Positions 3,501-38,829 of a DNA stretch of 64,000 bases are shown here, in pieces (positions within the stretch are counted from its first letter, which is position 1; every line of letters begins with the position of its first letter). The stretch is from Pedobacter cryoconitis (GTDB lineage: Bacteria; Bacteroidota; Bacteroidia; Sphingobacteriales; Sphingobacteriaceae), in NCBI GenBank assembly GCA_019352875.1, contig JAAAFW010000015.1:186001-250000 (forward strand), given 5' to 3'. The position numbers were made by a program, and so were the translations under genes. A model generated the notes under the pieces. The model ran no database searches and was not told where the DNA came from. It saw only the letters and a program-made list of their open reading frames with translations.

Positions 3501-4485
3501 AACTCTGGCTGGTGTAAAAGCAGATTGCCAAGGTGATATGCAGGAAATCAAATGGAGGCAGTTTATCTTTTACCGGCAGTGGCGTGCACTCCGAAAACAA
3601 GCAAATGCCCTGGAGATTAAAATAATCGGAGATCTTCCATTTTATTGCGCACTGGATTCTGTAGATGTATGGGCTAACCAACAGCTCTTTAGTCTGGATA
3701 AGAAAGGTCGTATGAAGGCAGTTGCAGGCGTTCCACCAGATTATTTTAATGCAGACGGGCAGTTATGGGGTATGCCAGTATATAACTGGAAGGAGCTTGC
3801 TAAAACGCAGTATCAATGGTGGACCGCACGCATTGCTAAAAACAGGCGGGATTATGATTTAATCAGAATGGATCATTTTCGTGCATTTCATGCTTATTGG
3901 GAAGTGCCGGCAAATGAGTCTTCGGCCCGCTTTGGTTCCTGGCAGCAGGGGCCGGGGGCTGACTTATTTAACGCGATCTTAAAAGTTCAGCCTGAGCTTC
4001 CATTTATAGCTGAAGATCTTGGCGAGATAACAGACGGCGTATTTCGCCTAAGGGACCGTTTTGGTCTGCCCGGAATGCGCGTTTTACAATTCGCTTTTGG
4101 GCCAGATGCTGCAGATTCTCTTCATGCACCACATAATTTTACCAGTACACATGCAATCGTCTACACTGGTACACATGACAATAATACGCTGAAAGGTTGG
4201 TACAAAGATGAGCTGAATTTAATGGAGCGTTCAAGGATCGAAGCTTATACCGGGCAAACTGTCTCTGCAAAAAACATACATCTGCTTATTATCGGACTTG
4301 CCTATGCATCTGTTGCCGGTATTGCAATAATTCCTATGCAGGATGTTTTGGGTAAAGGATCTGCCTCCAGAATGAATGTCCCGGCTTCAGTTAAAGATAA
4401 CTGGGGATGGAGAATGAAACCAGGAGAATTGAAAAATAATATGCTTGACTACCTGAGATCCCTGGCATTACGTTATGGAAGATAG
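517..4485 (+). CDS. treY: Maltooligosyltrehalose synthase fused to 4-alpha-glucanotransferase
   Basis: A 1322-residue bifunctional cytoplasmic enzyme. Residues 1 to ~820 are GH13 TreY, which isomerises the reducing end of maltodextrins to a trehalose linkage: the start MFNPNSTYRVQFH, the DIVPNHMAY block, the nucleophile region GLRIDHIDGL (~240), the general-acid region YIVVEKIL and the THDTKRGED block are all present. From ~826 (GILLHVTSLPSRYGIGDIG) to the end is a complete GH77 MalQ with the nucleophile in RMDHFRAF (~1118), the acid in AEDLGE (~1167) and GTHDNNTLKGWY. ATG 517 is preferred over an in-frame TTG at 499 because homologues begin there. TreZ and TreY make trehalose, and MalQ would re-lengthen the leftover short maltodextrins. 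Separate enzymes are the common arrangement; the fusion is intact with no stop. Confidence 0.93.
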   Translation: MFNPNSTYRVQFHSGFTFADFEAIIPYLSRLGISTIYASPIFAAVPGSTHGYDGTDPNIINPEIGSISDLKRISAKLAKLDMKWIQDIVPNHMAYHEQNSWLMDVLKNGEASAYREYFDILSTDLNQDPLMAPFLGKDLHDCIRDGELELVKIEQDWFIRYGENTWPLRAGTNPKDSLEKILSRQYYRLCTYTEANARMNYRRFFTVNSLICLNMQYEKVFEHYHRLIKELVDAGIFHGLRIDHIDGLMDPAGYLNQLRNLCGSEVYIVVEKILEPGEELPANWPVQGTTGYDFLGLANQLFTNEKAEDKFSSFYKNLQHKFAPVTVQIRKKKESFLNTYMQGELDNLCQLVITTPVVNKTNPDQEQVAIIREIIAELLIRCPVYRFYGNKYPLEKYEKKVITSIFKELEERLEYKQFIKLISKVLLEENIHCYQRLMQISGPLMAKGVEDTLMYTYNRFIGNNEVGDSPALFGITPDEFHKTILSRFTAWPIAMNATATHDTKRGEDARARLNALTDIRHVWINEINRWEELNKTLHAAGKPDRNDAYFIYQTLIATYPETEDQTHGYRDRLQTYIEKALRESKRNSEWEEPDLQYEKATCDFIDGLLNPEREFWNVFNSFMTIVFQQARKIALGSLVIKFGTPGIPDTYQGTELWDLSMVDPDNRRPVNYTERTGFLKQIEEGDFNLADSVENAGDGKIKLYLLRQLLHSRLRNPDLYASGLYIPLEIKGKYAAHLVAFARRSGNRWALFVVSINPSMVPDPASDLQNWEDTKVILPAEATGNYHELVHDVNISVSGVLELQDLFKVLPFAVLEWRGGQRQRGAGILLHVTSLPSRYGIGDIGPDASSFLESLAIARQQYWQILPINPVTAGQLYSPYSSTSAMAGNVLLISPELLLRDGLVNEGQLLQTQLKNSAKVKFQLVEKKKDKLLKQAFASFQALNKENQLVVDFKQFLKEEDFWLDDYALYEVLKMIQQGQPWYHWPEKIRSRDVETLAGVKADCQGDMQEIKWRQFIFYRQWRALRKQANALEIKIIGDLPFYCALDSVDVWANQQLFSLDKKGRMKAVAGVPPDYFNADGQLWGMPVYNWKELAKTQYQWWTARIAKNRRDYDLIRMDHFRAFHAYWEVPANESSARFGSWQQGPGADLFNAILKVQPELPFIAEDLGEITDGVFRLRDRFGLPGMRVLQFAFGPDAADSLHAPHNFTSTHAIVYTGTHDNNTLKGWYKDELNLMERSRIEAYTGQTVSAKNIHLLIIGLAYASVAGIAIIPMQDVLGKGSASRMNVPASVKDNWGWRMKPGELKNNMLDYLRSLALRYGR

Positions 4486-4573
4486 GTGTAAAAATACGTT
4501 TTTTTGAATTGAGACAAACTTTTAGTCTTCTGATTTGTAATTGCTTAATCAGGTGCATTTAAATCTTTGAAAG

Positions 4574-5095
4574 ATGAAACAGGGAATTGCAGAAAGTCTT
4601 CATAACGATGTATTTTATCATAATGATCCTTTAGCCAGTGTCGTTCTTATCGGGAAACCGGATGAATCCTGGATTATGGTTAATGCGGGTACTGCCGATT
4701 CAGGTCCGGAGTTGCTTAATGTAGTGGAGTCCAGATACGGACAAGATAACAGACCGGATTATATTGTATTAACCGATGCACATCCGGACCATGTTGGCGG
4801 CCTTCGTTACCTGCTCGAAAAATGGCAGGTACCGGTTTATGCACATATTAACGAGTTTCGTTTTTTAAACGGCTCAAGCACTTATCCTTTACCGGCAACT
4901 TTTTTTGAAAATGGTCTTTTAACCGATTTTCTTTCTGTTTTCATGCGCCCTGCAGTTAATGTAGCGGCATATCTCAGACCATTACCGCATCATGGGAAAT
5001 TGCCAGGGCTTCCTGAATGGGACTGGATCACTACACCCGGAGAAACCGGAGGACAGGTTTCCTTATTTAGATCTTCCGACGGAATTTTAATCTGA
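4574..5095 (+). pseudogene. Truncated metallo-beta-lactamase-fold hydrolase
   Basis: The 173-residue product begins like MBL-fold hydrolases and carries the metal motif as TDAHPDHVGG, where the usual HxHxDH has Asp in place of the first His. A second ligand region, PLPHHG, follows at ~138. The protein stops directly after a segment (SLFRSSDGILI) that in complete relatives leads into the GD metal ligand and ~70-80 further residues. None of these can be found before the next gene at 5152. The loss of the C-terminal half of the metal site plus the altered first His argue for a decayed gene, although a folded non-catalytic protein cannot be excluded. Its substrate is unknown. Confidence 0.65.
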
Positions 5096-29737: not shown

Positions 29738-30367
29738 TTATTCGTTTTTCTCTAATTTTTCGATGTCCATTGCAGTCAGATACTGAAGATTCTTTGTGAT
29801 TTTTTCAATTTCCCAATCCCACCATTTCAGCTTTAGAAGTTTGCTTATTATATCATCAGCGAATCTCTTTCTAATCGCCACTGCCGGGTTCCCACCTATA
29901 ATGGTATAGGGCTCAACGTCTTTGACTACAGTAGAATTGGTCGCAATTATTGCACCGTCTCCGATGGTAACACCGGCCATTATTGTCGCATTATAGCCGA
30001 TCCATACGTCGTTACCGATGACGATATCGCCTTTTACCGGATACTGCCTTTCGCCCATAGCATTCTCCCAGCCGTTTCCGAATATGGCAAAAGGATAGGT
30101 CGACAAAGCGTTTGTCAGGTGATTAGCTCCATTCATGATAAATTTTACGTCTGAAGCAATCATACAGAATTTACCAATTATGAGCTTATCATTAATAAAA
30201 TCAAATTGATATTTTACGTTTCTTTCAAAATTCTCTACGTTATCAAAATCATCATAATACGTGTAATCGCCGATAATTATATTTGGATTTTTAATAATGT
30301 TCTTAAGAAAGCATAACCTGTCATAACTCTTTAACGGAAATTTTGCTTCTTTATCTGGTCCATTCAT
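29738..30367 (-). CDS. Vat/CatB-type xenobiotic O-acetyltransferase
   Basis: A 209-residue left-handed beta-helix acetyltransferase using acetyl-CoA. It follows the Vat streptogramin A acetyltransferase plan closely: IIIGDYTYYDD, LIIGKFCMIASDVKFIMNGANH (catalytic His), YPFAIFGNGWE, VKGDIVIGNDVWIGYNATIMAGVTIGDGAIIATNSTVVKDVEPYTIIGGNPA, and a C-terminal LLKLKWWDWEIEKI helix. Streptogramin-type antibiotic inactivation is the likely activity, although the CatB group also acts on chloramphenicol and other acceptors. The gene stands alone beside a decayed gene, which fits a local insertion or rearrangement. Confidence 0.87.
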   Translation of the reverse strand: MNGPDKEAKFPLKSYDRLCFLKNIIKNPNIIIGDYTYYDDFDNVENFERNVKYQFDFINDKLIIGKFCMIASDVKFIMNGANHLTNALSTYPFAIFGNGWENAMGERQYPVKGDIVIGNDVWIGYNATIMAGVTIGDGAIIATNSTVVKDVEPYTIIGGNPAVAIRKRFADDIISKLLKLKWWDWEIEKITKNLQYLTAMDIEKLEKNE

Positions 30368-31422: not shown

Positions 31423-34005
31423 TTATAATGAATAACGCAACGTTACTCCATAAGTTCTCGGATCACCAAGTACACCGGCGTATAAACCAGAGTTTCCTGC
31501 TGCTGCCTGTAATTGTTCATAATAGTTTTTATTTGCAATATTTCTCGCCCAGACAAATACTGAAAATTTATCCGATTTAAATCCTAATCTGGCATTTAAC
31601 AGTGAATAGCCTTCAACATTTAAAACACGCGATGGGGTTGGATTTGATGAGTATTCTGAACGGTAGCTGGCGTCGGCAGCAATAAAATATCTTCCTGCTG
31701 CAGTAGCCAGGTTACCAGGATTGCTGAATTCTGCACCACCAGAAACATTCCATTTAGAAATACCTGGCAATCTACCGCCGGAAGCATCTTTAAATGCTAC
31801 CTGAGTAGCTACACCATTAATGAGCTCTGTGTGTCCGGTTTCCTCTAATGGTAGTGGTGCGTTTGTGAACTTCACATATTTCCCATCAAGATAGGCCATA
31901 GCAGCATTTAAAGTTAAGAATTTGCCTAACTGGTACGTTCCATCAACCTCCAGGCCTTTCACATTAACTTTTTCTGCATTCGCAAGGTAACCTCTATTTA
32001 CACCTAGCTGTGGCGATTGTACGTTGGTTTGATAATCTTTAATATCTGTATTAAATGCACTTATGTTTACGATTGCGCCTTTTACCGGTTTGGTTTTAAC
32101 ACCCAATTCATAATGTTGAACATACTCGGGTTTAACTACTGCCAGAGACAGGTCTGCTTGTCCATTGGAAGTTGTAGGTAAACCACCAACGTTCACACCA
32201 ACTGGCTTGTATGCTGTCGAGAACGTTCCGTAAGCATTTAGTTTAGTGGTAGGTCTGTAAGACAGCGTAGCATTTCCTGATAAATTGTTGTTGTCTACAC
32301 TGGTGTTGAATTGTTGATTACTGTAAACTGCAGCTTTAAGGGCCAGTAAATCGGCGTTTGAAGTTTGCAGACCTCCATAGGTCACACGGTCATAGTTAAC
32401 GTCTTTTTTATCATAGGTATATCTTAAACCTGGTAAGATATGCAGGTTTTTAAGAAATTCCCAGTCAGCCTGTGCAAATACAGCGGTACTCAATGATTTG
32501 ATTGTAGAATTAGTTCTTATTCCATATCCATCTAATAGACCTGGAGTTGAGTATAGCGCCTGGGCTCCTGTATTACCTGTTTGTACGAATCTCCACTGGT
32601 CTTTACCGACTTCTTCTGTCTGATCTAAACCTTTCAGATTCTGAGCGAGCGCAAATACACCGATAACACCACTTACTTTCTCCGCTATATTACCGGCGTA
32701 TCTAACCTCCTGAGAATATTGATCGTGGCGTGAGTTTCCCTGAGATTTGGTAAGTGCAGATAACTCGGAGAAATCTCTGTCATTTGTAGGGTTCCAGTTC
32801 CAGAATCTCCAGGCAGTAGTTGACGTAAGTGTTCCGTTGCCTATTTTATAATCTACGTTTACGGAGATCCCGCCAATTGACTGATCGTGTTTCCAGGGTG
32901 TATTGGTATTGATCGTTCGGGAAGAAGGATTTACTACAGGCTGCTGATATCCTAAATCAGAAACAATCTTTGCATACTGGCGGTAAGCGCTTCTTTCTGT
33001 TGTGGTAACACCCGCGATCACCAGTGGATAGCCTGCCGGATGCTGAATGCTGACATCACCACTCAGTAATACCTGCAATTTATCTGACGGCGTATAATAT
33101 AACTGACCTTTAAAGCCGAGGTTGTTCTGTCCGCTATACCTGCGTTCTTCTTTGGTGTTAAAAATTGTACCATCCCGCTGAGTTCCTGAAATAGATAGTC
33201 TTGCTGCAAGGTTTTTTGCAACACCACCTGTAACTGATGTTTTCGCCTGCATAAAATTATAGTTTCCGAAGCTAAGTTCAACTTTTCCGCTTGGTGTTTG
33301 CGTTGGTTTAGCAGTGGTGATGTTAAATGCACCTGCAGTTGTATTTTTACCGAACAGCGTTCCTTGTGGACCACGAAGGATTTCTATTTGTTCGATATCA
33401 AGAAAATCCGTAGAAGTGGCAGCCGGACGAGCCTGATAAACGCCGTCTACATAGAAGCCTACTCCAGGATCAATTCCGTCGTTAGTTAATCCGAATGTTG
33501 ATCCTAATCCTCTGATATTAAGTGTAGTGTTCCTGGCATTAGAAGCATATAACTGTACGGAAGGAACCAGCTCTTTTAAACGGTTAACATTAAAAGCTCC
33601 TGCATTTTCTGCTGCTTGTCCGCCGATGACAGTAATTGCAATCGGAACATCCTGTAGGACTTCTGACCGTCTTCTTGATGTTACAACGATCTCATCCAGT
33701 AATTCACTTTCAATCAGAACTAGCTCGAAAGGTGTATCCTGAAGCTTTAAAATCTGAAAATCCTGCGACTTGTATCCAACAGAACTAACCCGAAGATAAA
33801 AGGGGAGGTCTTGCTTTGAGTCGATGCTGAATTTGCCTTCGGCATCTGCAATCGCAGAAATCTTAGTACCTCTGATTAAAACTGTTGCATTTGGTACCGG
33901 GGCACCATTACTGGTTTTTATAATACCTGTTATTGGACTTTGGGCAAAAACATAATTTGCCATAAGTATGAATGACAGTATAATAAGTAAACGTTTCTTC
34001 ATCAT
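31423..34005 (-). CDS. TonB-dependent outer-membrane receptor
   Basis: 860 residues: signal peptide (MMKKRLLIILSFILMANYVFA), a carboxypeptidase-D-like regulatory domain (~23-105), a plug domain (~115-230; NIRGLGSTFGLTNDGIDPGVGF, IEILRGPQGTLFGKNTTAGAFNI) and a 22-strand barrel ending YGVTLRYSL. The plug resembles receptors common in alphaproteobacteria more than SusC proteins, and no SusD partner is adjacent, so a small-molecule ligand rather than a glycan is likely. ATG 34005 is selected because the signal peptide begins there. A Cys-rich leader peptide lies 175 nt upstream, suggesting control by cysteine or sulfur supply. Confidence 0.92.
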   Translation of the reverse strand: MMKKRLLIILSFILMANYVFAQSPITGIIKTSNGAPVPNATVLIRGTKISAIADAEGKFSIDSKQDLPFYLRVSSVGYKSQDFQILKLQDTPFELVLIESELLDEIVVTSRRRSEVLQDVPIAITVIGGQAAENAGAFNVNRLKELVPSVQLYASNARNTTLNIRGLGSTFGLTNDGIDPGVGFYVDGVYQARPAATSTDFLDIEQIEILRGPQGTLFGKNTTAGAFNITTAKPTQTPSGKVELSFGNYNFMQAKTSVTGGVAKNLAARLSISGTQRDGTIFNTKEERRYSGQNNLGFKGQLYYTPSDKLQVLLSGDVSIQHPAGYPLVIAGVTTTERSAYRQYAKIVSDLGYQQPVVNPSSRTINTNTPWKHDQSIGGISVNVDYKIGNGTLTSTTAWRFWNWNPTNDRDFSELSALTKSQGNSRHDQYSQEVRYAGNIAEKVSGVIGVFALAQNLKGLDQTEEVGKDQWRFVQTGNTGAQALYSTPGLLDGYGIRTNSTIKSLSTAVFAQADWEFLKNLHILPGLRYTYDKKDVNYDRVTYGGLQTSNADLLALKAAVYSNQQFNTSVDNNNLSGNATLSYRPTTKLNAYGTFSTAYKPVGVNVGGLPTTSNGQADLSLAVVKPEYVQHYELGVKTKPVKGAIVNISAFNTDIKDYQTNVQSPQLGVNRGYLANAEKVNVKGLEVDGTYQLGKFLTLNAAMAYLDGKYVKFTNAPLPLEETGHTELINGVATQVAFKDASGGRLPGISKWNVSGGAEFSNPGNLATAAGRYFIAADASYRSEYSSNPTPSRVLNVEGYSLLNARLGFKSDKFSVFVWARNIANKNYYEQLQAAAGNSGLYAGVLGDPRTYGVTLRYSL

Positions 34006-34180
34006 ATTAATATTAAATGGTTTTTGATTATACACAGCCAGATATCTGGTGCGTTAGTTTTGGTTGATTTGTTGGGAGATTTGTGCATAGCAAAGCCATG
34101 AGATGGTTTTTGCATCCAGTCAGGTTTAAAATATGCGATGGTATTTAGGCTTTTTTTGCCCGGCGATTACTTGAGCAGAA
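34006..34180 (-). promoter_or_regulatory. Structured leader between Cys-rich peptide and TonB receptor
   Basis: The 175-nt untranslated stretch contains a stem-loop at 34090-34113 (GCAAA/TTTGC and CCAT/ATGG, 3-nt loop) and a perfect 12-bp palindrome CCAGATATCTGG at 34038-34049, 33 nt before the receptor start codon. Both could serve as alternative structures in an attenuator controlled by translation of the leader peptide. This is inference from position. Confidence 0.5.
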
Positions 34181-34243
34181 TCAACAACAACAGTTACAGT
34201 CTAATAGAACGAGCGTTCCTTCTTTAGCTGTTTTTCTTTTCAT
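34181..34243 (-). CDS. Cysteine-rich 20-residue leader peptide
   Basis: An ATG ORF of 20 codons and a TGA stop encodes a basic start (MKRKTAKEG), a hydrophobic middle and the ending L-L-D-C-N-C-C-C. Four of the last five residues are cysteine, all encoded by TGT, directly before the stop. A cluster of one rare amino acid next to the stop of a tiny ORF, upstream of a gene on the same strand, is the classic layout of an attenuation leader, as for trp or his leaders and the actinobacterial Cys-rich leader ORFs. Low cysteinyl-tRNA would stall ribosomes here and alter the downstream structure. Confidence 0.65.
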   Translation of the reverse strand: MKRKTAKEGTLVLLDCNCCC

Positions 34244-34555
34244 TTTTATAAAATGTAAGTCTGTTTTCATTCGGTTAGGTTGTAAAGTTTTATTTTGATT
34301 ATACGAATATAGTATTCTTTTTTAATTAACAAATAAAATCTATAGATTTTGTAGTGTTTATTTTAATGAAGCACCAAAGTACTTGATTTTTGACTGCTAT
34401 TTTGGCTAACCGGGTGATAGATAGGCTGGTTTCAGTCTTTTTGCTTTTAGCCCTGAGTGAAGGGTATCAATAAATCTGGATTACCCGATAACTATTTAGA
34501 CTTATTCCTAATAAAGGATTATATTTGTTCGCTTTGACAGGTAAGTAAATAATTT
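34244..34555 (+). promoter_or_regulatory. Divergent promoter region, leader peptide versus ECF sigma gene
   Basis: AT-rich and without further genes. On the plus strand, TATATTTG at 34520-34527 matches the TAnnTTTG -7 element, 28 bp before the GTG start of the sigma gene. No obvious iron-box palindrome was seen. Confidence 0.5.
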
Positions 34556-35110
34556 GTGAAGATTTTGAAGAATAATAGAGATGATACTCTGCTAAACAAA
34601 ATAGACGATGTAAGTTTTCGCGCTTTGTTTGATCAATATTGGAAACGATTAGTTGCCTTCTGTCAGTATCATACTAACGACGACGAGGTAGCAATGGATA
34701 TTGTTCAGGATATTTTCTGCTCAATATGGAAGCGTAAAGATAGTCTTCGTATAGAGACAAATATGGAACACTACCTTTTCCGTGCGGCCCGGATGAAAAT
34801 TACGGATCATTATCGGGAGAAATTTAAGAAGGAGAATCACAATAGGTGTATTTCAGAAAACTTCTGTGAGAGTATTAATAATACAGAAGAGACAATTCTT
34901 CACAAAGATTTGGACCACTATGTGGATGGGCTTGTCAATAGATTGCCTTGCCGTTGTAAGCAAGTTTATACTTTGAGTCGTAATAGTGGCCTTAGTATTC
35001 CTGAGATAGCTAAACAACTTGTGCTTTCCGAAAAAACAGTGGAAGCTCATTTAACTAAAGCATTGCGTTTCCTCAAAACGTACCTGATTCAACAACCCAA
35101 TGAAAAATAA
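34556..35110 (+). CDS. ECF sigma factor, FecI-like
   Basis: A 184-residue sigma-70 family protein. Region 2 is ~20-90 (FRALFDQYWKRLVAFCQYHT, MDIVQDIFCSIWKRKDSL, MEHYLFRAARMKITDHYR) and region 4 ~125-175 (LPCRCKQVYTLSRNSGLSIPEIAKQLVLSEKTVEAHLTKALRFL). There is no ATG in the right place; GTG 34556 or TTG 34565 must be used. It is followed by a FecR anti-sigma factor, a FecA-like receptor and a PepSY membrane protein, so it drives cell-surface-signalled expression of that uptake locus. Confidence 0.92.
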   Translation: MKILKNNRDDTLLNKIDDVSFRALFDQYWKRLVAFCQYHTNDDEVAMDIVQDIFCSIWKRKDSLRIETNMEHYLFRAARMKITDHYREKFKKENHNRCISENFCESINNTEETILHKDLDHYVDGLVNRLPCRCKQVYTLSRNSGLSIPEIAKQLVLSEKTVEAHLTKALRFLKTYLIQQPNEK

Positions 35111-35169
35111 TTTATTTTTCAACTAAGGGTAAATCCTCTTACCAACGACTTGTATTATAAAAGCGGTTC

Positions 35170-36132
35170 ATGTTGGTAGATCATCATTTATTAGAAAAGT
35201 ACTGGGCAGGGTTATGCACTCCCGAAGAAAGGGAGGCTGTAGAACGATGGATGCTGGACGGAATTCCGGAAGAATCCTATGAACTGCGTCCCCCCGATGT
35301 AGAACCTGTAATAAAAAATCAACTATGGGAACGCATAACTGAGGCCAGCCGCGAAGAAATAAACCCTGATAAGACTATCCGCATGTCAATGTGGTTTAAA
35401 ATGAGTGCAATCGCCGCGATCTTGTTTTTACTGATTGGCGTGGGTATATATATATCACCTGATTCCATACTTGACAAATCTCGCCCAAGCGCTTTAGTGG
35501 CATACCAGGAAGTTAGTCTTCCATATGGAAAGAAAGCCAGTGTAACCTTACCTGACGGAACTAAAGTATTTCTCAATGCAGGAAGCAAATTAAAATATCC
35601 ACCGAAGTTTTCAAAAACAGAAAGAAGAGTTCTATTGGATGGAGAGGCGTTCTTCGAGGTGACAAAAGATCCGAAAAAACCTTTCTTTATCCAGACCAGG
35701 CAAACCACTACCAGGGTATTGGGTACCAGATTTAACCTTCAGAGTTGGGAAGGTTGTTCTGATATATTGAATGTAGAAGAAGGTAGAGTACAATTCAGTG
35801 CCGCAGGATCTATAGATACATTGATACTGCATGCCAATACGCAAGGCGTTTTTGATGGTCATTCACTAACTAAAACCATTGTTAACAGTAGAAACAGAAT
35901 TGCCTGGACCAAAGGTCAAATGATATTTAACGACGTAAAATTAGGTGAAGTAATTATTGAACTGGAGCGTTGGTACGGAGTTAAAATTCATCTGAGTAAC
36001 CCTCAATTAGCAAACAATAGGGTGAAAGTTCAATTTGATAATGCATCGCTTGCCGAGGTATTGCGGGATATCAGCTTTGCACTTAATATTAAATATAAAA
36101 TCAAAGATAAGGAGGTTATGTTGTCGAGATAA
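35170..36132 (+). CDS. FecR-family anti-sigma factor
   Basis: 320 residues: a cytoplasmic sigma-binding part (~1-75), one membrane helix (~76-96; MSAIAAILFLLIGVGIYI) and a periplasmic FecR domain (VSLPYGKKASVTLPDGTKVFLNAGSKLKYP, LDGEAFFEVTKDPKKPFFIQT), then a C-terminal STN-like domain (NDVKLGEVIIELERWYGVKIHL). It holds the sigma factor until the receptor signals ligand binding. It lies between sigma and receptor in the standard order. Confidence 0.94.
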   Translation: MLVDHHLLEKYWAGLCTPEEREAVERWMLDGIPEESYELRPPDVEPVIKNQLWERITEASREEINPDKTIRMSMWFKMSAIAAILFLLIGVGIYISPDSILDKSRPSALVAYQEVSLPYGKKASVTLPDGTKVFLNAGSKLKYPPKFSKTERRVLLDGEAFFEVTKDPKKPFFIQTRQTTTRVLGTRFNLQSWEGCSDILNVEEGRVQFSAAGSIDTLILHANTQGVFDGHSLTKTIVNSRNRIAWTKGQMIFNDVKLGEVIIELERWYGVKIHLSNPQLANNRVKVQFDNASLAEVLRDISFALNIKYKIKDKEVMLSR

Positions 36133-36195
36133 ATACAATTCTTAACAAGAATACCCGGTGTACGCATCGCCAAAATTGTCCACCGGGTAGGAGCA

Positions 36196-38829
36196 ATGAA
36201 ATCTTTAGTTGAATCAATCACATTACTTTTAATCAAAAATATGAACTTTTTGCTATTTAGAGCAACGTTGTTTTCACGTGCATTGAAAACAAGTATTTTA
36301 ATAATTTTAATTTTCGTTACAAGTCTTTCAGCCTGGGGACAGGCTTCCATACTAAAAAAACGTATCAGTGTCCAGGTTAGCAACCTTAGTATCGCTAATG
36401 CACTGGGCGAAATAGAAGCTAAAGCAGGATGCAGCTTTGTTTACAGTCCGGATTTGTTAAATGTAGACCGTAAAATTAGTTTTTCTCATCAGAATGTAAC
36501 TGTGGAATTTATACTTCAGGATATCTTTGGCGACCAAATACGTCGGATTGAAGTACAGGGAAACCGCATCAATATCCAGCCATCTAATGGAAAAGGAACT
36601 ATTTCAGGTAAAGTGATTACAAGTGACGGTCTTCCTGCAGCTTACGTAAATGTTGACATTGAAGACAGAAAAGTACAGGCAGATGAAAATGGACTTTTTA
36701 GTTTTAAGAATATAGAGGCGGGTACCTATAGGATCACCGCAAAATATGTTGGACTAAAGGGTCAGAATCAGGAAGTTACAGTTACGCCTAATGGAGCAGC
36801 TAAGATTTCTTTCACGCTATATGAAGATATGAATGCCTTACAGGAGGTTGTTGTAAATGGAGAACGTGTGAACAGATTTGCAAACAAAACAACCGAATAT
36901 GTATCCCGTCTACCCTTAACAAACCTAGAAAATCCTCAGGTATATAGTGTAGTAACGAAACAGCTTATGCAGGAGCAGGTTATAGTTTCGGTTGCAGATG
37001 CATTGCGTAACGCCGGTGGGGCAGTCGCTATTACCAACCCATCAGGAGGAGTTAGTGCCTATTTCAGAGGATTTGGAACAGGAATTAATGCCCGGAATGG
37101 AATGGAATCTACTTCAGACCGTTCCGCATTAGATTTGGCAAACATTGAGCGTATAGAGGTTATGAAAGGACCGTCAGGAACCTTGTTTGGAGCCTCAGTA
37201 TCGTCTTTTGGCGGGGTTGTTAACGTGGTCACAAAAAAACCGATAGAAGCAAAAAAAACAGAATTAAGTTATACTACGGGTAGCTTTGGCTTAAACCGGT
37301 TGACTGTAGATGTTAATACGCCGTTAGATAATGAAAAACGTGTACTGTTTAGAGTTAATGCCGCATCGCATCGTGAAAGGAGCTTTTTGGATTATGGCTT
37401 CAACAATACCTTTTTACTTGCTCCAAGCATTACCTACAACGTTAATGAGAAGCTTACATTAAATGTAGATGCAGAGTTATTACAGGTACACAATACGCAA
37501 CCTATGAATTATGTATTCAGGTCTGCGGAAATTAAGCAACCCAGTGATTTGTTATTAGATGACCGGAAGTCTTTGTTCCATGATAATGTAGATGTGAAGA
37601 ATTACGCAACCAGGGTCTTTGCTGAGGCAGTATATAAGTTCTCAGATAATTTTAAATCCACGACGCTTTTTTCTTTTGTATCTGAGAATGTAGATCACAG
37701 CTATCAACGACTTGTAATTTGGTCTTCACCGAGTAACGTTACACGTGCATCTTATGTTTATGGTCCTGTGTACAATGGATACACAAATATTCAGCAAAAT
37801 TTTAACGGCAAGCTAAACACAGGAGGGCTTACACATAATATTCTTATCGGGGCGAATTATCGTCATTATAGTTCTAGTTTTCTATTTGCAGAAATACAAC
37901 CTATTGACCAGATTGACGTAACAAAGCCATTTAAACCAATTGTTCGTCAACAAATTGATGATGTAGTAAACTTTGAACCTTTTCCCTCTCCATCGCAGCA
38001 AACAGCTAGTGTTTACGCATCGGACATGATTAATTTATTACCCCGCCTTTCAGCCATGTTATCCTTGCGTCTGGATCGGTACAATAGAAAAGCGATCGAA
38101 GGAGAAGACGGCTATAAACAAACATCATTAGCACCGAAATTGGGTTTGGTATATGAAGTTTTCCCAAAATCTGTATCAATTTTTGCCAATTACATGAGCG
38201 GTTTTCAAAATGTGGCTCCGGTTTCACAACCTAATGGTATTCGCCAGGTGCTGGACCCTATATTCGCTAATCAGGCAGAAGCTGGTTTTAAAGCGGAACT
38301 TCTCGAAAAGAAGTTAAGTTTTACCGCAAGTTATTACCGTATCAATATTGATAATGCAACGCGTATGAATGAAGAATTGTTTACCATACAGGATGGTAAA
38401 CAATTGAGCAAAGGTGTCGACCTGGAATTGATTACGCAACCAATACCGGGTTTGAATATTCTTGCAGGTTACGGATATAATGACAATCGTATTGTAAGAG
38501 CTGAATTAGATGCTAAAATTGACGGAAATAGAGTTGGAAATGCACCTGAGAACGTGGCGAATTTGTGGGCTTCCTATGCATTTCAAAAACAACTTAAAGG
38601 TTTTGGATTTGGTGCAGGTGTAAATTATGTAGATAAAATGTACAGGGCCGCGGACAATAATTTCTCTATTCCGTCTTATACTTTAGTTAATGCCGTAGTT
38701 TTCTACAATAAACAAGCCTGGGGCATACAAGTTAAAGCCAATAATATTTTTAATGAGAAATATTGGGATAGCTGGGCCAATGTTCAGACGCCATCTAATT
38801 TGACAGCTAATCTTTCATTCCGTTTCTAA
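36196..38829 (+). CDS. FecA/FoxA-type TonB-dependent siderophore receptor
   Basis: 877 residues (862 from ATG 36241). A signal peptide precedes an STN signalling domain (~55-125; RISVQVSNLSIANALGEIEAKAG ... VTVEFILQDIF), an extra carboxypeptidase-D-like domain (~130-210), a plug (GVSAYFRGFGTGINARNGM, IERIEVMKGPSGTLFGA) and a barrel ending NLTANLSFRF. The STN domain is what allows contact with FecR, so this is a transducer receptor. The arrangement and the PepSY partner point to ferric-siderophore uptake; the ligand is unknown. Confidence 0.93.
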   Translation: MKSLVESITLLLIKNMNFLLFRATLFSRALKTSILIILIFVTSLSAWGQASILKKRISVQVSNLSIANALGEIEAKAGCSFVYSPDLLNVDRKISFSHQNVTVEFILQDIFGDQIRRIEVQGNRINIQPSNGKGTISGKVITSDGLPAAYVNVDIEDRKVQADENGLFSFKNIEAGTYRITAKYVGLKGQNQEVTVTPNGAAKISFTLYEDMNALQEVVVNGERVNRFANKTTEYVSRLPLTNLENPQVYSVVTKQLMQEQVIVSVADALRNAGGAVAITNPSGGVSAYFRGFGTGINARNGMESTSDRSALDLANIERIEVMKGPSGTLFGASVSSFGGVVNVVTKKPIEAKKTELSYTTGSFGLNRLTVDVNTPLDNEKRVLFRVNAASHRERSFLDYGFNNTFLLAPSITYNVNEKLTLNVDAELLQVHNTQPMNYVFRSAEIKQPSDLLLDDRKSLFHDNVDVKNYATRVFAEAVYKFSDNFKSTTLFSFVSENVDHSYQRLVIWSSPSNVTRASYVYGPVYNGYTNIQQNFNGKLNTGGLTHNILIGANYRHYSSSFLFAEIQPIDQIDVTKPFKPIVRQQIDDVVNFEPFPSPSQQTASVYASDMINLLPRLSAMLSLRLDRYNRKAIEGEDGYKQTSLAPKLGLVYEVFPKSVSIFANYMSGFQNVAPVSQPNGIRQVLDPIFANQAEAGFKAELLEKKLSFTASYYRINIDNATRMNEELFTIQDGKQLSKGVDLELITQPIPGLNILAGYGYNDNRIVRAELDAKIDGNRVGNAPENVANLWASYAFQKQLKGFGFGAGVNYVDKMYRAADNNFSIPSYTLVNAVVFYNKQAWGIQVKANNIFNEKYWDSWANVQTPSNLTANLSFRF

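Follow-up and report, generated by a model that had tools for sequence, protein, structure and literature searches.

In Pedobacter cryoconitis, a short open reading frame that ends in a cluster of cysteine codons lies upstream of the gene for a TonB-dependent outer-membrane receptor. This arrangement raises the question of whether the frame is the leader of an attenuator that senses cysteine, and whether the receptor serves sulfur nutrition. An earlier note on the same DNA had favoured both, had named a stem-loop and a 12-bp palindrome as parts of the switch, and had predicted that clustered Cys codons would be kept upstream of receptor orthologues. We examined these proposals in the window (the whole 64,000-nt stretch analysed, positions 186,001 to 250,000 of contig JAAAFW010000015.1) and in orthologous loci. 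The window genome is that of a Pedobacter near P. antarcticus (98% receptor identity). The comparison across species suggests that the leader lets the cell raise sulfur uptake when cysteine is short, and we consider it probable that a Cys-sensing leader-peptide attenuator controls the receptor. The features of the locus are collected in Table 1.

Table 1. Features of the receptor gene and its control region, in window coordinates.
Feature	Position	Strand	Basis
Promoter box CTACAAAATCTATAGATTTTAT, putative operator of an Rrf2-type sulfur regulator	34333..34354	-	Related boxes before orthologues
Candidate Bacteroidota -7 promoter element TATATTCG	34304..34311	-	Alignment with TATMTTYG in type B relatives
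Leader ORF MKTDLHFIKMKRKTAKEGTLVLLDCNCCC-stop, 29 codons (a shorter version, from 34243, in the earlier note)	34181..34270	-	Alignment and ORF reading
Cys run TGT AAC TGT TGT TGT with TGA stop; presumed regulatory codons	34181..34198	-	Sequence
Spacer of 178 nt (C 24%, G 13%); candidate region for Rho loading or translational control	34003..34180	-	Composition
TonB-dependent outer-membrane receptor, 859 aa, with CarboxypepD_reg-like domain, plug and barrel; presumed controlled gene	31423..34002	-	Domain matches

Inspection of the sequence bore out the Cys-ending frame: on the minus strand it can be read from an ATG at 34243 to the run and stop, all four Cys codons are TGT, and the stop lies 178 nt upstream of the receptor ATG at 34002. 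An in-frame ATG at 34270 is the likelier start: when the 29 leaders of the window's type (type B, see below) are translated from their first ATG, their alignment begins at this point, and L086, L148 and L165 lack the internal Met. Four Cys in the last five residues have a probability of about 2e-8 per ORF if residues are assumed independent and Cys makes up 0.75% of them. However, of the 466 window ORFs of 15-60 codons, 4 have three Cys in five residues (the 3-in-5 rule), so the window ORF alone is suggestive and not conclusive; it is conservation upstream of orthologues, and not the lone ORF, that settles the reality of the leader. No known Rfam cis-regulatory RNA matched the window (0 matches) or any of 8 related loci. 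The Bacteroidota -7 consensus is TAnnTTTG. The candidate -7 element sits about 34 nt before the leader ATG, which argues against a leaderless start, and would place the start of transcription roughly 25-30 nt before that ATG.

The receptor was found in 120 of the 145 genus genomes and, class-wide, in only 12 of 295 (E 1e-150); receptor matches in genus genomes that were not retrieved as loci are outside the orthologue counts given here. A short sense ORF with three Cys in five residues was present upstream of 63 of 103 receptor orthologues (400 nt examined), comprising 53 of 80 in the window-plus-named set and 10 of 23 from other genera and families. The antisense strand yielded 0 of 103, dinucleotide shuffles 16 of 2060 and the upstream regions of other genes 6 of 529. 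One locus, L119, was left out of this count (upstream sequence <300 nt), though its leader is present. Within 450 nt, a sense poly-Cys leader was likewise found at 53 of 80 named orthologue loci and an antisense one at none of the 80. Clustered Cys codons are thus kept upstream of orthologues in Pedobacter and in some relatives, as had been predicted, and it is by this comparison that the leader and its Cys run are established as conserved features.

The prediction held less well with distance. Among 34 further family orthologues, mostly more distant, 6 had a sense leader and 1 an antisense one, while a CC pair in a short ORF occurred in 11 sense and 5 antisense cases; the leader is present in Pedobacter and sparse among distant relatives. 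In all, no poly-Cys leader was detected at 40 of the 103 and 28 of the 34 orthologues, including L172 and two Rrf2-linked loci, L241 and L242 (whose genomes are those of L184 and L185). Short ORFs ending RMCC-stop (QKRMCC, LRMRMCC and SRMRMCC) occur at three of the more distant orthologues, L260, L271 and L272. These lie below the three-Cys threshold, so the leader count in distant orthologues may be an underestimate. Two records, one titled Bifidobacterium breve (a MAG; L175) and one Flavobacteriaceae bacterium (L163), hold receptor loci 70-75% identical to those of Pedobacter, and their contigs are probably mislabelled or contaminant. A family-wide scan for TGYAAYTGYTGYTGYTRA gave 46 matches in 41 of 301 genomes and 3 with the reversed pattern, which is a poor control; the scan was dropped as evidence because, of the 30 loci retrieved, this leader was present in just three (the own genome, L026 and L027), and receptor orthologues were used in its place.

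The orthologue leaders are of several types. In type B the Cys run lies at or near the C-terminus and the median spacer is 180 nt. Type A leaders (MKTNQKTRSYCCCSHSKTVIAYFRTSH and kin) carry their Cys residues mid-peptide, with a spacer of about 33 nt, and type C leaders have the form ...NPMCCCMKKNAFNYLKIPIQQ, their Cys codons pairing with CATACAGCA just downstream. Other genera mostly have unrelated peptides, such as MNRIIHSSSPCCCCCCVSCN and MYFNLFISPNFELFVFNKCPCCCC, the exception being L049, a type B leader. The 29 type B leaders carry 3-5 Cys near their end, but as this set was itself chosen by the 3-in-5 rule (with L049 and near-duplicate loci left out), the independent evidence for the Cys run is the count of 63 in 103. 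When 34 hand-picked receptor leaders were compared with Cys masked, they formed 21 groups without similarity at z 5, a comparison that has low power for short peptides and in which three (L059, L060 and L152) were trimmed to an inner Met.

Within type B, the first 14 codons are well conserved (MKTDLHFIKMKRKT). The length of gap runs within the ORF is divisible by three in 160 of 162 pairwise counts, versus 795 of 4419 in the spacer, although these counts are not independent. The share of synonymous changes among single-base codon differences is highest in frame 0, and markedly so only over codons 2-14, where pairwise and likewise non-independent counts gave synonymous:nonsynonymous ratios of 512:977 in frame 0 versus 338:1176 in frame 2; the corresponding values at the 3' end are 386:487 and 360:526. 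The coding signal of the leader is modest. Across the leader types compared, the Cys-codon run is the only broadly conserved feature, and many leaders share little else. Its frequency (63 of 103 over a background of about 1%), the frame-preserving gaps and the turnover of the peptide around a retained run together argue for selection on the Cys codons.

Comparison of the receptor with solved structures led to no ligand assignment, as it gave matches to distant receptors only (pesticin, pyochelin, PQQ, heme and others; best E 1.5e-17). In a minority of lineages, the gene neighbours of the receptor point to sulfur. At L172 the receptor (64% identity) lies within a same-strand run in the order Rrf2, sulfite reductase, uroporphyrinogen methyltransferase (SUMT), receptor, peroxiredoxin, small ORF, siroheme/TauE, aldo/keto-reductase-like, CysH and CysD, with names taken from Pfam or from matches to own-genome proteins and, for the aldo/keto-reductase-like gene, assigned by eye. 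In 3 of 25 loci (L172, L233 and L237) the receptor adjoins or lies among sulfite-reductase genes; at L233 and L237, which are the genomes of L061 and L189, the receptor is divergent from them, and the receptors of L061 and L189 carry poly-Cys leaders. An Rrf2 gene adjoins the receptor in 2 of the 25 (L241 and L242), which lack the leader, as does L172. Single weaker neighbours were seen at L226 and L224, and none of the sought sulfur genes was beside the receptor at 18 of 25.

Three neighbouring genes or gene groups are recorded here in their own right. In the window, divergent from the leader, 34556-38829 (plus strand) encodes an ECF sigma factor, a FecR-type regulator and a siderophore-type TonB receptor and resembles an ordinary iron uptake cluster. 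At 29738-30367 (minus strand) lies a Vat-family-like acetyltransferase gene, a near-cutoff predicted homologue of the streptogramin A O-acetyltransferase family (290 bits against a cutoff of 300). The third is at L144 (about 3960-5010), where a PhyH-type dioxygenase gene near the receptor is preceded, at a distance of 127 nt, by an ORF ending WAGCCCCCC-stop; this gene too may scavenge sulfur under the control of a Cys leader.

The receptor promoter carries a palindromic box near CTACTAAATCTATAGATTTTAT; relative to the -7 element, the box is on the upstream side in type B and immediately downstream in type A. Comparison establishes that the box is shared: related boxes precede receptor orthologues, sulfite-reductase operons and a SUMT gene. 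A matrix built from 27 distinct receptor boxes was applied to 530 control regions, giving a 95th percentile of 7.7 and a 99th of 30.7. Scores exceeded the former in 28 of 30 sulfite-reductase operons (11.4 in the window genome's own), but these operons are all from Pedobacter and not independent, and their scores reach at most 25.6, below the control 99th percentile. The 12 top-scoring controls were 10 genes that share the receptor's intergenic region and 2 SUMT genes. Visual inspection of 6 type C loci showed a similar box ahead of SUMT in every one. The own genome has one Rrf2 homologue at E 1e-8 (56% identity), encoded directly upstream of a SUMT gene. The box is probably bound by an Rrf2-type sulfur regulator. 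Own-genome scans gave few box matches (7 versus 4 in the control, and 4 versus 1), so that the regulon was not defined from one genome. The second own-genome match (2 mismatches; L177, near 1458684 of G000:C10) lies 94 nt upstream of an ORF of 420 aa whose N-terminus is signal-like; this ORF is a possible further regulon member.

The sulfite-reductase operon appears to carry a sister attenuator. In 22 other Pedobacter loci, a hairpin before at least four T was found in 22 of 22 (-9.6 to -20.0 kcal/mol), together with a leader having at least two Cys in 18, one Cys in three and none in L206. These leaders, for example MNFNFIPNKLIAMQIMCCCKTQ or MKTVNLTSMCLYMCCMYP, often contain Met as well, and only 8 of 30 operons have three Cys in five residues. 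All seven operon hairpins tested beat 30 of 30 shuffles, whereas three leaderless loci do not. In the consensus fold of group II, TTTTATAC inside the leader ORF pairs with GTATAAAA after the leader, and two-sided changes were seen in 3 of 18 pairs (group I) and 4 of 33 pairs (group II). The operon leader is absent from L193-L199, the window genome and its nearest relatives, and from L220; three of these loci were tested and had no terminator-like hairpin. In the window genome's own operon (L183, 6405-6440) the box is present and the leader and terminator are absent, as against a hairpin in 22 of 30 sampled Pedobacter loci. Judged by this distribution, attenuation of the operon would have been lost or gained within the genus. 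The sulfur context of the receptor in 5 of 25 loci, the shared promoter box and the Cys/Met leaders of the sulfite-reductase operon back the earlier expectation of a sulfur role, and on comparative grounds the receptor is tied to sulfur assimilation.

The same observations bear on what the Cys run might sense. An alternative to charged tRNA-Cys, which we judge unlikely and yet the best of those considered, is that the nascent peptide or its product arrests the ribosome in response to a metal such as copper, or to redox state. Cys runs can bind metals. Additionally, copper-dependent regulation by bacterial upstream ORFs has been published (PMC9426467, PMC9973294). However, the residues around the Cys run and the position of the run vary widely, which arrest peptides would hardly allow; the recognised neighbouring and co-boxed genes are those of sulfur assimilation; and the Cys/Met leaders of the sulfite-reductase operon come with terminators. 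Charged tRNA-Cys remains the preferred signal.

The conserved first 14 codons of type B would also suit a small protein with a function of its own, a thiol carrier or modified peptide merely sited before the receptor. This we regard as improbable, as neither type A nor type C leaders have the conserved N-terminus, most other-genus leaders in the same position (L049 excepted) lack it too, the peptide has no NCBIfam match, and no neighbour gene, for maturation or otherwise, is conserved at the type B loci. Marginally less credible again is sulfur control by the Rrf2-type operator alone, with the leaders as tolerated by-products. The box is indeed the more widespread element, scoring at least 14.8 in 21 of 23 other-genus or other-family orthologues and lying directly before the leaderless receptors L106, L111 and L126, but the excess of leaders over background, the frame-preserving gaps and the retention of the Cys run through peptide turnover speak against it. 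The chance appearance of an ORF with terminal Cys codons in AT-rich intergenic DNA, for which the four window ORFs under the 3-in-5 rule and the three leaders among 30 CNCCC-stop loci might be cited, is refuted by the counts in sense, antisense, shuffled and other-gene sequence and carries negligible weight.

We thus retain, as the probable reading, an attenuator that senses cysteine through its leader, and consider how it might act on the receptor. Both structures named earlier exist in the spacer. The palindrome CCAGATATCTGG (34038-34049) is conserved only in part among near relatives and is missing from other relatives. The stem-loop GCAAAAACCATCTCATGGCTTTGC (34090-34113) is not a conserved switch; its site is that at which a pattern search located a GGATG...CATCC-like hairpin in 23 of 29 relatives (elsewhere at L148), though not in the window itself. 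With neither conserved as such, their role as a regulatory switch is unsupported. No single RNA structure was found across the leader types, and the type B consensus fold is weak (-0.8 kcal/mol). Pairing of the Cys codons with downstream sequence, clear in type C but not in all type A loci, was rejected as a general mechanism.

A simple scan returned no terminator on the receptor strand. In a first trial, 7 of the 8 spacers selected outperformed 19 or more of their 20 shuffles. Over the full type B set, 7 of 29 spacers beat at least 24 of 25 shuffles under a loose T rule, which the window fails, and 8 of 29 beat at least 48 of 50 under a strict T4 rule; under the latter, 4 of 29 reach -9 kcal/mol or below (L108, L110, L120 and L122) and the window is borderline at -4.6 kcal/mol. 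An intrinsic terminator is possible at those four loci, but no general one was found across the 29 type B spacers, and it was rejected as the general mechanism at the receptor. The earlier proposal of a cysteine attenuator keeps its comparative support (63 of 103 against 0 of 103 antisense) without the named stem-loop and palindrome or a general intrinsic terminator. The type B spacers are C-rich and G-poor, with 22.3% C and 12.4% G versus 0.161 and 0.153 in controls, and in 29 of 29 C exceeds G, but their mean C-over-G excess is also reached by 3.7% of 348 control regions. Such a composition would suit Rho.

In the mechanism that we propose, region 34354-34002 would govern a TonB receptor gene that responds to sulfur. 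Transcription would start at a promoter whose operator-like box is probably the target of an Rrf2-type sulfur regulator, and the transcript would encode the 29-codon leader peptide with its Cys run. Under a shortage of charged cysteinyl-tRNA, the translating ribosome would slow or stall at the Cys run and the receptor would be expressed; when Cys is plentiful, the ribosome would finish and leave, and receptor expression would be lowered. The last step may be Rho-dependent termination in the C-rich, G-poor spacer or translational control, either of which seems more likely than an intrinsic terminator.

Several known systems offer parallels. Attenuators of the trp/his type are transcription attenuators with a leader pairing segment and a terminator, and the sulfite-reductase operon leader, with both, fits this description, whereas the receptor leader lacks a general terminator. 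In the tnaC leader of Escherichia coli, an arrest peptide responds to free tryptophan, whereas the signal proposed here is charged tRNA-Cys. The likeness to tnaC is that a ribosome held at the end of the leader could mask a C-rich Rho site in the spacer. Cys-run leader ORFs precede cys operons without terminators in Actinobacteria, for which Seliverstov et al. 2005 (PMC1262725) suggest Rho as one possibility and name the tna operon as a parallel. Polycysteine short ORFs are known from mycobacteria (Canestrari et al. 2020, as cited in PMC9094748 and PMC13236596), and a citing paper reports translation attenuation in M. smegmatis.

The actinobacterial and mycobacterial leaders resemble those of Pedobacter in being short upstream ORFs with a Cys run near the stop, placed before sulfur genes and with no obvious terminator. 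Unlike the actinobacterial leaders, those described here belong to Bacteroidota, precede an outer-membrane receptor and share a promoter box with sulfite-reductase operons. Unlike the leaderless mycobacterial ORFs, the Pedobacter leader is probably not leaderless, judging by its predicted start site, and the likeness described here is one of layout. In Rhodobacterales, the uORFC-8-2 motif before cysS combines tandem Cys codons with a terminator, and PMC8632094 proposes attenuation by tRNA-Cys. This motif shares with the Pedobacter leaders an upstream ORF with tandem Cys codons, and its layout is nearer to the sulfite-reductase operon than to the receptor; it differs in controlling a tRNA synthetase in Alphaproteobacteria. 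In Flavobacterium, clues for leader-peptide attenuation before amino-acid operons have been presented (PMC9723704). In the literature searched (with most subscription journals outside its scope), we recognised no description of a Cys leader before a TonB receptor.

Taken more broadly, we give somewhat better than even chances to a two-layer sulfur regulon in Bacteroidota, in which an Rrf2-type operator would be fine-tuned by tRNA-Cys leaders of fast peptide turnover, with a terminator on the sulfite-reductase operon and mostly none at a TonB receptor that would import a sulfur compound. If true, this would be, judging by the literature searched, the earliest description of a codon-sensing attenuator at a TonB receptor, and it would extend amino-acid-sensing attenuation to outer-membrane nutrient uptake in Bacteroidota. 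The replacement of the peptide around a retained Cys run would constitute a natural experiment on what an attenuator requires. Finally, an orphan outer-membrane receptor family would be linked to sulfur nutrition, opening a route toward finding its ligand.
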